From a bacterium (GTDB taxonomy: Bacteria; Sysuimicrobiota; Sysuimicrobiia; Sysuimicrobiales; Segetimicrobiaceae), in assembly GCA_035703895.1 (NCBI GenBank), contig DASSXJ010000107.1, positions 1 to 36,825 on the forward strand: DNA of 36,825 nt, read 5' to 3'. Below the pieces are notes generated by a model that ran no database searches, was not told where the DNA came from, and was given only the letters and a program-made list of their open reading frames with translations. The translations under genes were made by a program, and so were the position numbers. Of this stretch, positions 14,751 to 17,472 are shown piece after piece. The number at the start of each line of letters is the position of its first letter. Within the stretch, counting starts at the first letter, position 1.

Positions 14751-15656
14751 CTAGGCGGGCGCCCGAGCGATGAACTGGAGCCAGAAGCGGGGGACCCCGC
14801 CTGTAATCTTAGCGTCGTCCATCGCCCTGCGCACGGCTTGAGCCAGCGCGTCCGCCCCGATTTCGAGCGGGACCTGCGGGAGGGCGCCCTGAACGAATAG
14901 GGAAAATTGGCCGATATCCTCCAAGCTCTCCGGAGAGAGCGTCACCTCGTGAAGCCGCCACGACGTCTCCACGAAACCTGCCTGCCTCACGAGCGTTCCG
15001 TACTCCTCGGGCGTGACCCATTCCAAACTCTCCGCCCGATCGTTTCGCAGAACCGAGATCCCGCGTTCGCGGAGATACTGGGCGGCTCGCAGGATCCAGT
15101 AGCGATAGAACCGCTCGGTGCCCGTGGGATAGCAGCCCTTGAAGAACGTGGTGTTGAACGCCAACGTCCCTCCGGAGCGGAGCACCTTGTGGATCTCCGT
15201 CAGGACGTGACTCTTATCCCGGATCAGGTGAATCGCATTGCAAAAGACCACCACATCCACCTGCGGGACGAGGCGGCTGAGATTTTCTGCGCTGCCTTGG
15301 ATGAACTGCACGAGGCTGGACGTAATCCGTCGCCTGGCGCGGTCGAGCTCTGAGAGGGACGGATCGACGGCATAGATGAGGCCGCGGCGGCGGTCCCGCA
15401 TCGCCTGAACGATGAGCTCAGTCACGGCCCCCGGCCCGCACGCCAGGTCGACAAAGCGGGACCCAAGCGAGGCGACCCGCTCCACCAACCAGCGGTTCAC
15501 CTCTTCGAAGAACGGATGGCTGGCGAAGCGGGAGAAACCGAAGCGGTCGTTGTCGGGGTCGGACACTTGGATGTCCCCCCCTCGTTGTGACTCGTTCACG
15601 ACTCCACCTCCGGTCGGACCACCTAGGGGCTGCGTCGAGAGGATGTTGGCGACCAT
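14751..15656 (-). CDS. Class I SAM-dependent methyltransferase
   Basis: 301 aa from ATG 15656. The Rossmann core carries motif I VDLACGPGAVTE (about 68-79), motif II AVDPSLSELDRAR (about 95-107), a middle motif VDVVVFCNAIHLI (about 133-145) and post-motif GGTLAFNTTFFKG. The fold is clear but the substrate is not; the family resembles UbiE/Methyltransf_11 proteins. ATG 15656 has GGAGGAGGG about ten bases upstream. An in-frame GTG at 15599 also has GGAGGTG, so the first 19 residues are uncertain. The gene follows the DEAD-box-like gene by 21 bases on the same strand and is probably co-transcribed with it. Confidence 0.85.
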   Translation of the reverse strand: MVANILSTQPLGGPTGGGVVNESQRGGDIQVSDPDNDRFGFSRFASHPFFEEVNRWLVERVASLGSRFVDLACGPGAVTELIVQAMRDRRRGLIYAVDPSLSELDRARRRITSSLVQFIQGSAENLSRLVPQVDVVVFCNAIHLIRDKSHVLTEIHKVLRSGGTLAFNTTFFKGCYPTGTERFYRYWILRAAQYLRERGISVLRNDRAESLEWVTPEEYGTLVRQAGFVETSWRLHEVTLSPESLEDIGQFSLFVQGALPQVPLEIGADALAQAVRRAMDDAKITGGVPRFWLQFIARAPA

Positions 15657-15677: not shown

Positions 15678-16346
15678 CTACTCGCCTGTCGCGACCGCCC
15701 TGGTCTCTCGTGTCGTCAGCGCGACGTAGATGGGGTTCCGGAGATATCGCCCGACCATCGCCCGGACGGGGTCCGGGATCGTCGAAGCGAACAGCGCCGT
15801 CTGGCGTGTGGACGGGGTGCGGACGAGGATCTGTTCCACGTCGGACCGGAAACCCATCTCCAGCATCCGATCGGCGGCGTCCAGCACCAGAAGCGTCACG
15901 CTCCGCAGTGTCAGGGTGCCGCGTCCCAGGTGATCGAGGACCCGGCCCGGGGTCCCAACGACGATGTGGGGCTTGTCTCGGAGGTGGGCGACCTGTCGGG
16001 CCGAGGGTTCACCCTCTGAGATCGCTACGATCCGGAGGCGCGTGTAGGCTCCGAGCGTGCCAAGGTCGGCGGCCACTTTCTTCGCCAGATCCTTGCTTGG
16101 CACCAGCACGAGGCCCTGGACGGCTTTGCTGCGCGGATCCAATCGTTGCAGCATGGGGATCCCGAACGCGGCGGTGCGCGCGGAGCCGGCTTCGGCCCTC
16201 GCGACCAGGTCCCGTCCGGTCTTCAGCGAGGGGATGACCTGCGCCTGAATCGGAGTCGGGGCGGTCCAGCCAAGCTCGCGGACCGCCCGCTGAAGCCGTG
16301 GATCCACCAGACCATCGAAGCCCGCTGCCCGGGAGCCTCCCGCCAT
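15678..16346 (-). CDS. Single-domain, degenerate DEAD-box helicase-like protein
   Basis: About 222 aa from ATG 16346 (239 from GTG 16397). It is the N-terminal RecA domain of a DEAD-box protein; the second RecA domain is absent, whereas normal members exceed 370 residues. Motif order is kept: Q-motif region PTPIQAQVIP, motif Ia PSKDLA (usually PTRELA), Ib TPGR, III ASTIP (usually SATxP). Walker A reads AEAGSART instead of AxTGxGKT, so the Lys is lost, and motif II reads DAAD instead of DEAD. ATP hydrolysis is therefore unlikely. The frame is intact and has a good promoter, so it may be a maintained pseudo-enzyme rather than debris. SD-like GGTGGGTG precedes ATG 16346. Confidence 0.82.
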   Translation of the reverse strand: MAGGSRAAGFDGLVDPRLQRAVRELGWTAPTPIQAQVIPSLKTGRDLVARAEAGSARTAAFGIPMLQRLDPRSKAVQGLVLVPSKDLAKKVAADLGTLGAYTRLRIVAISEGEPSARQVAHLRDKPHIVVGTPGRVLDHLGRGTLTLRSVTLLVLDAADRMLEMGFRSDVEQILVRTPSTRQTALFASTIPDPVRAMVGRYLRNPIYVALTTRETRAVATGE

Positions 16347-16466
16347 CACACCCACCCACCGAGGTTTGCGCCGTGCGCACCCATGGGACACACACAACGG
16401 GAGAGCCCAGGCCCTCCCGCCGTCGACGAACGCGGTTTTGAGCTGGTCCGCATCTGAGGTCCTTCT

Positions 16467-16495
16467 ATTGTATTATAGAGGTGCGCCCCGGTCAA
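16467..16495 (-). promoter_or_regulatory. Sigma-70-type promoter for the DEAD-box-like gene
   Basis: On the minus strand, TTGACC (16495-16490) and TACAAT (16472-16467) are separated by exactly 17 bases, a near-consensus sigma-70 promoter. Initiation near 16460 leaves a leader of over 100 bases to ATG 16346 that contains an inverted repeat (CGGGAG/CTCCCG, 16387-16411). Confidence 0.65.
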
Positions 16496-16513
16496 TTGTT
16501 CGGAGGGATGATC

Positions 16514-16975
16514 GTGCCCACCGCCCGCAAACCGGAACCACCTCCGGCCGTCACGACAGACGGGCCTCGTCCCGAACCGCCGTCGGGGCCACTGCGCCTC
16601 GACGTTCGCGATCCCCGGGAAATCCGGCTCGACCTGCTCGAGACGTTTCCCTACGAGTACCCTAGATCCCCCGCGATCGTGGAGATCACGACCGACGAGT
16701 TCACCGCGGTCTGTCCTTGGTCGGGGCTCCCCGATTTTGGCACGGTCGTCGTCCGGTACCTGCCGAACACCCGGGTGCTCGAGCTCCGCTCGTTCAAGTA
16801 CTACCTGCTGTCCTACCGGAACGTGGGGATTTATCAGGAGCATGCGGCGAACAGGATCCTTGCAGATCTTGTTCGTGCGTGCGCCCCGCAATGGATGGAG
16901 CTCGAATTGGACTATCGCATCCGAGGGGGCGTCCACACGGTCGTTCGCACTCGGTGGCCCGCACCATCGTCGTGA
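16514..16975 (+). CDS. queF: NADPH-dependent 7-cyano-7-deazaguanine reductase QueF (type I)
   Basis: Reduces preQ0 to preQ1 in queuosine tRNA-modification synthesis. 153 aa from GTG 16514. The catalytic Cys67 (AVCPWSGLPDFG) and Asp74 keep the seven-residue spacing of the family, and ELRSFKYY matches the QueF NADPH-binding motif with Arg for Lys at the third position. GTG 16514 is chosen because CGGAGGG lies six bases upstream; ATG 16508 and GTG 16481 are also in frame. The other preQ0 genes (queC, queD, queE, folE) are not in the window. The stop overlaps the likely queT start. Confidence 0.93.
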   Translation: MPTARKPEPPPAVTTDGPRPEPPSGPLRLDVRDPREIRLDLLETFPYEYPRSPAIVEITTDEFTAVCPWSGLPDFGTVVVRYLPNTRVLELRSFKYYLLSYRNVGIYQEHAANRILADLVRACAPQWMELELDYRIRGGVHTVVRTRWPAPSS

Positions 16976-17472
16976 AGCGCGGGGCGGTGCGGATCGCGGA
17001 GATCGGCGTTGTGGCCGCGGCATACGCTGCGCTCACGGTCCTGCTGGCCCCGGCCTCCTACGGCCCGCTGCAGTTTCGGCTCGCCGAGAGCCTCAAGCCC
17101 CTCGTGATCTGGGAGCCCCACCTGATCCCGGCGTTCGTCCTCGGCAACTTTCTCAGCAACCTGCCGAGCCCGTTCGTGGGCCCATGGGAACTTGTGTGGA
17201 TGCCGTGCGCGAACCTCGTCGGCGCGTGGGCGTGTTGGCGCATCGGACGCATCAACGCGTATCTGGGAGCCGGTGTGTACGCGCTGATCATCGGGGGCGC
17301 CGTGGCGACGATGCTGTCCGTGCTGCTGCGGGCGCCCTTTCGGGTTCTCTTCCCATCCATTACCGCGAGCGAGGTCATCCTGCTCGTGCTGGGGGTCCCC
17401 GTGATGTACCCGGTGCACCTCGCGCTGCTGCGCCTCACCGGTGACCGGCCAGGGGCATCTGCCGCGCGATAG
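16972..17472 (+). CDS. queT: QueT family ECF-transporter S component (queuosine precursor uptake)
   Basis: Predicted substrate-binding membrane subunit for queuosine precursors, 166 aa, with about five hydrophobic segments. The family segment PLQFRLAESLKPLVI (about 36-50) and the following loop FLSNLPSPFVGPWELVW are typical of QueT. GTG 16972 overlaps the queF stop (GTGA); GTG 16954 would add six residues. S components need EcfT and two EcfA subunits; none are adjacent on this strand, but a complete set lies at 19752-22305 on the other strand. Linkage to queF supports a preQ0 or preQ1 ligand. Confidence 0.88.
   Translation: MKRGAVRIAEIGVVAAAYAALTVLLAPASYGPLQFRLAESLKPLVIWEPHLIPAFVLGNFLSNLPSPFVGPWELVWMPCANLVGAWACWRIGRINAYLGAGVYALIIGGAVATMLSVLLRAPFRVLFPSITASEVILLVLGVPVMYPVHLALLRLTGDRPGASAAR

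Follow-up and report, generated by a model that had tools for sequence, protein, structure and literature searches.

A one-domain DEAD-box protein lacking ATP-using residues in the Segetimicrobiaceae: a probable pseudohelicase under purifying selection

In the Segetimicrobiaceae (Sysuimicrobiota), a family of bacteria from soil and sediment that have not been cultured, a DEAD-box gene encodes a single RecA domain, has lost the residues that use ATP, and evolves under strong constraint. On balance, we think that its product is probably a catalytically dead pseudohelicase, maintained by purifying selection, that acts in the DeaD/CshA pathway by ATP-independent binding of RNA or of an RNP or protein partner. 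The gene lies in a stretch of 36,825 nucleotides (contig DASSXJ010000107.1, called the window here), and its locus contains the following features.

15678..16346, minus strand: pseudo-DEAD gene encoding 222 aa, with RecA1 as the sole domain; ATG at 16346, TAG at 15680-15678, frame intact.
16355..16447, minus strand: 5' leader of the pseudo-DEAD gene, laid out as three helices, P1/P2/P3; covariance model R2, for which this leader was one of the building sequences, matches it with an E value of 2e-22 in its own genome.
16396..16425, minus strand: P2 hairpin of the pseudo-DEAD leader, GACGGCGGGAGGGC-ctgg-GCTCTCCCGTTG.
16467..16495, minus strand: TTGACC-17-TACAAT, the promoter of the pseudo-DEAD gene; the orthologues are preceded by -35 and -10 elements like these.
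14751..15656, minus strand: class I methyltransferase (Methyltransf_11/UbiE-like); first ATG at 15656, likely start GTG at 15599.
16481..16975, plus strand: queF-like gene, divergent; a conserved neighbor of the family locus with an independent function.
16972-17472: queT, which follows the queF-like gene; also a conserved neighbor with an independent function.

An earlier note, made from the sequence alone, had described a DEAD-box gene of one RecA domain with an intact frame at 15678-16346 and had read its motifs as AEAGSART (Walker A), PSKDLA (Ia), and DAAD (II). The gene is exactly as described, all three readings are correct, and the sole Pfam match in the protein is PF00270 (DEAD; E value, 2e-37). 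The second RecA domain is indeed missing, as the note had claimed: there was no Pfam match to Helicase_C in the protein or in the flanking DNA, and no RecA2 remnant followed the gene in the window or in the 10 orthologous loci checked. Motif Ib reads TPGR; motif III is also changed (FAST versus FSAT), and the GG doublet has become EG. The best NCBIfam model for residues 15 to 215 is CshA, at 210.7 bits versus a cutoff of 646 bits. A functional DEAD-box RNA helicase has two RecA domains, a Walker A motif of the form GxGKT, and DEAD as motif II, none of which is found here. Three features of a pseudohelicase are found: DEAD-box fold and homology, loss of the catalytic residues in all orthologues, and maintenance by selection.

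Our sample of the phylum was 43 genomes of one order, and Sysuimicrobiota has been published as a phylum of one order (PMC11604079). Orthologues, 67 to 94% identical and with gene order kept, are present in 11 of the 12 genomes of the window's family; the one genome without the gene (G004) is 64% complete. All 10 family genomes that are at least 90% complete have an orthologue of 222 to 236 aa at the same locus. The 11th copy, from a genome that is 68% complete (G003), is disrupted out of frame near its C terminus (L006:1250-1320), with the usual tail ending readable in another frame; the assembly may be at fault, or the damage may be genuine. No such protein was found in the other families of the phylum in the 43-genome sample, where the DEAD-box proteins have their full length and normal motifs. 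A survey covered 386 genomes, of which 343 lie outside the phylum; among the matches listed, those outside the family have open frames of 310 aa or more, the sole shorter match in the phylum outside the family being partial (276 aa, in the fragmented genome G042). The earlier note held that close relatives with normal motifs and a second RecA domain would mark this copy as a decayed fragment. Full-length proteins of that kind, with normal motifs, do occur in the same family genomes, as a separate paralogue located elsewhere; no full DEAD-box RNA helicase other than one of the DeaD/CshA type was detected in them.

The alignment of homologs that the note had proposed shows the same catalytic positions lost in every orthologue, with the one-domain length common to them. 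We compared the 11 orthologues with 60 canonical RecA1 rows. G56 and K57 of Walker A and E157, the Glu of DEAD, are kept in 0 of the 11, versus 100% of the 60 canonical rows. The window's genus has R in place of K57, where the other three genera have T; position 157 is A or D, so motif II is DAAD in the window's genus and DDAD or DDTD elsewhere. In DEAD-box proteins, RecA2 carries arginine fingers. ATP chemistry has thus been lost twice over, and RecA2 is absent as well. A lone RecA1 domain of this kind would be expected neither to close on ATP, nor to hydrolyze it, nor to unwind RNA. These losses bear on the idea of a split helicase, in which RecA1 would work in trans with a RecA2 domain from another polypeptide. 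A single RecA1 with a conserved fold would suit such an arrangement, but no ATP chemistry is expected after loss of the Walker A Lys and the catalytic Glu, and stand-alone Helicase_C is not recurrent in the family (the few such open frames are short, and some lie at the ends of contigs). We give the split helicase almost no credence and rule it out for want of a recurrent RecA2 partner across the family.

The surface that would face RNA is kept in part. T58, D156, D159, G112, T132, P133, and R135 are kept in 11 of 11 orthologues, and T84, E86, L87, G111, G134, and A188 vary. Within the RNA-facing set, P83, the basic residue of motif Ia (K/R85), G112, and T132, P133, and R135 of motif Ib are kept, and T84, E86, L87, G111, and G134 are among the variable positions. 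The Gly that opens the GG doublet is Glu in the window's genus and Thr in one other genus; the Ib Gly is variable; and motif Ia erodes to PNRDAV or PTREQA in orthologues. Because GG, the Ib Gly, and Ia are not fully preserved, the canonical RNA-binding mode may be weakened; judged by the residues that are kept, RNA binding by the pseudo-DEAD protein is plausible.

The erosion of the GG doublet and motif Ia would also fit a protein that has lost RNA binding too, a fossil RecA1 domain serving as a scaffold that docks on DeaD, an RNase, or a ribosomal assembly factor. Many invariant residues specific to the pseudo-DEAD proteins belong to neither the ATP nor the RNA motifs (for example, at 67-78, 102-106, 113-117, 145-149, and 172-183), and docking would be via invariant stretches such as QRLDPRSKAVQG and VEQILVRTPSTRQT. 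However, none of the 11 orthologues has lost the Thr, Pro, or Arg of Ib or the basic residue of Ia, and we regard the pure scaffold as possible but rather unlikely. According to the pseudohelicase explanation that we favor, the retained RecA1 surface would hold RNA or an RNP or protein partner without ATP, and the protein would be an adaptor or competitor working beside or against the DeaD/CshA-type helicase. One genome that is 96% complete (G007; L007 and L036) has the pseudohelicase and no detectable deaD or deaD leader, so strict dependence on DeaD is not assured.

AlphaFold with a 71-row alignment predicted the RecA1 fold with a pLDDT of 90.5 and a pTM of 0.87 (superseding a run with a 10-row alignment, pLDDT of 59.7). 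Most of the rows are canonical and the confidence partly reflects them, so the result shows a sequence compatible with this fold. In Foldseek searches, the nearest structures were the RecA1 domains of Hera, CshA, DeaD, and eIF4A (TM, 0.83 to 0.90). The RecA1 domains of CshA, DeaD, and Hera (PDB 5ivl, 6aib, 5gju, and 2gxq) share this fold at 37 to 45% identity; unlike those helicases, the pseudo-DEAD protein is without RecA2, the Walker A Gly-Lys, and the DEAD Glu.

We calculated dN/dS, the other measurement that had been suggested, by the Nei-Gojobori method, using the same genome pairs for the pseudohelicase and the intact paralogue. Within genera, the values were 0.016 to 0.085 for the pseudohelicase, below the 0.11 to 0.24 for RecA1 of the intact paralogue; the methyltransferase gave 0.06 to 0.18. 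Between genera, the pseudohelicase values were 0.15 to 0.18, ratios that are less reliable with dS above 1 in most pairs. A useful nonenzymatic job is probable, because the ATP-using residues are lost in every relative yet constraint is tighter than on the working copy. The earlier note's proposal of a maintained pseudo-enzyme without ATPase function is thus borne out by the shared catalytic losses, the common one-domain length, and the very low dN/dS. The opposite proposal, a decaying fragment of a duplicated helicase, would account for the truncation, the lost motifs, and the disrupted C terminus in G003. But the frame is intact in 10 of 11 copies, promoter and leader are retained, synteny is conserved, and the gene evolves more slowly than its active paralogue. 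Decay has next to no probability, and we rule it out by dN/dS and conserved synteny.

In the phylogeny, the 11 pseudo-DEAD proteins form one clade (support, 100/99) with a long stem (0.58) and short inner branches, a shape that indicates a burst of change at the origin, followed by constraint. The pseudohelicase would descend from a full-length DEAD-box helicase through loss of RecA2, the Walker A Gly-Lys, and the DEAD Glu; this form was presumably fixed before the genera of the family split and then held by strong purifying selection. A recent duplication from deaD of the window's genus was rejected, that grouping being disfavored (AU test, P = 0.026). The nearest row in the tree is a full-length, active-looking DEAD protein from another family (G017; support of 75/61, not firm). 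This protein (L030:1027-2330) has intact motifs and a leader resembling the pseudohelicase leader, and it is possibly a relative of the pseudohelicase ancestor.

Across the family the gene order is queT-queF (divergent), pseudo-DEAD, methyltransferase, threonine synthase, and ATPase, with small local gains and losses. The earlier note had placed the methyltransferase 21 bases downstream; this holds with its first ATG (15656) and fails with the better start, GTG 15599, which leaves a gap of about 78 nt. Most methyltransferase orthologues align only from about residue 15, and the GTG has its own Shine-Dalgarno sequence. The note had also suggested that the pseudo-DEAD protein is an RNA-binding guide subunit of this enzyme, and the two genes do adjoin on the same strand in 11 of 11 loci. 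However, the methyltransferase (METHYLTRANSFERASE) is present in 35 of the 43 phylum genomes, including families without the pseudohelicase, where it lies at a distance from deaD or on a different contig. In 7 of the 11 family loci, namely, all 7 outside the window's genus, the gap holds an exact TATAAT together with a -35-like element; one locus of the window's genus has TATACT there. (An automatic promoter scan of one locus left out the intergenic TATAAT because of its stricter threshold.) The enzyme resembles small-molecule methyltransferases of the UbiE and BioC types, with all matches below curated cutoffs. The methyltransferase gene predates the pseudo-DEAD gene and can be separated from it. 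An operon-type tie is not supported: the enzyme also occurs in families that lack the pseudohelicase, and in most cases it has a TATAAT promoter of its own. The guide subunit is very unlikely.

The near-consensus promoter that the note had seen ahead of the pseudo-DEAD gene is real by count (1 match versus 0.1 expected in shuffled sequences) and is the only promoter-like site of the region. The pseudo-DEAD genes carry their own conserved leader, for which RNAalifold, run on the pseudo-DEAD leaders alone, gave the same P1/P2/P3 layout as the leader of deaD. The deaD leader is about 150 nt long and conserved across the phylum. It consists of GUCGUCAUA-UGCG, hairpin P2, GUGUGUC paired with GACACGC (P3), and a pseudoknot-type pairing; CCUUCUUCGUG pairs with the Shine-Dalgarno sequence CACGAAGGAGG to form a sequestering helix. 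With this structure, 89.9% of cells pair versus 38 to 54% when it is slid, although drawing it from one of the scored sequences gave it an advantage over the slid controls. Fifteen pairs are changed on both sides, a number reached by 1 of 500 shuffles, with most covariation in P2. Covariance model R1 of the deaD leader has one match per genome, only at deaD, in nearly all deaD-bearing genomes of the phylum (L002, L014-L032, L124-L136, and L172, 5' of deaD) and none in about 199 genomes outside it. An apparent second leader in G001 was discarded as a truncated duplicate at a contig end. Neither leader matched Rfam at gathering thresholds, and the deaD leader may represent a new class of cis-regulatory RNA.

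Model R2 of the pseudo-DEAD leader matches the pseudo-DEAD loci, including two genomes left out of model building (E value, 3e-7). R1 has no match to these leaders at genome scale and weak matches at the right place (L011, E value of 0.001; L007, 0.085); R2 likewise weakly matches deaD-side leaders at the right place (L030, 0.004; L015, 0.008; L014, 0.04). The two leaders are probably a shared, diverged regulatory element, and for the pseudo-DEAD gene the link to deaD through the leader is stronger than the link to the methyltransferase. Expression of the pseudohelicase is probably set by its structured leader. Because the leaders share a layout, we infer that deaD and the pseudohelicase gene may respond to a common signal, either cold or a load of RNA structure. 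That the pseudohelicase itself binds the P1/P2/P3 leaders of its own and deaD mRNA in trans, controlling sequestration of the deaD Shine-Dalgarno sequence, is improbable; if true, a helicase would have been turned into a sensor of mRNA structure.

In the literature searched, which left most subscription papers outside its scope, we found no earlier bacterial DEAD-box or RecA1-only pseudohelicase. Utp25/Def, a DEAD-box-derived pseudohelicase of the eukaryotic SSU processome that is essential in yeast, likewise keeps the DEAD-box fold, has lost the catalytic motifs, and is maintained, but it is eukaryotic, has both RecA domains and an N-terminal extension, and is far more divergent in sequence (PMC9539457). 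PriA of Deinococcus radiodurans is a bacterial helicase-family protein that has been called a pseudohelicase, but it is a DNA replication-restart helicase and not a DEAD-box RNA helicase (PMC4504706). The cspA mRNA thermosensor is analogous to the deaD leader in being a cis-acting structured 5' leader of a cold-shock-type gene that affects ribosome binding; the leaders here differ in having no Rfam family match (PMC9947658). The pseudohelicase is a clean natural experiment, half a helicase whose ATP chemistry is gone and whose constraint is tighter than that on the working enzyme of the same genomes, and from it one could learn how much a RecA1 domain by itself contributes to a cell.

The deaD leader joins Shine-Dalgarno sequestration with an apparent AUU or AUC start codon, which resembles infC, in most genomes, including all 11 deaD-bearing ones of the window's family. 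No alternative in-frame ATG, GTG, or TTG was found for deaD in L014, L023, L027, and L028. The AUU or AUC (e.g., in L014:1440-1475, L023, L027, L028, L002, and L124-L133) sits 8 to 10 nt after AAGGAGG, where the relatives L021 and L024 have ATG.
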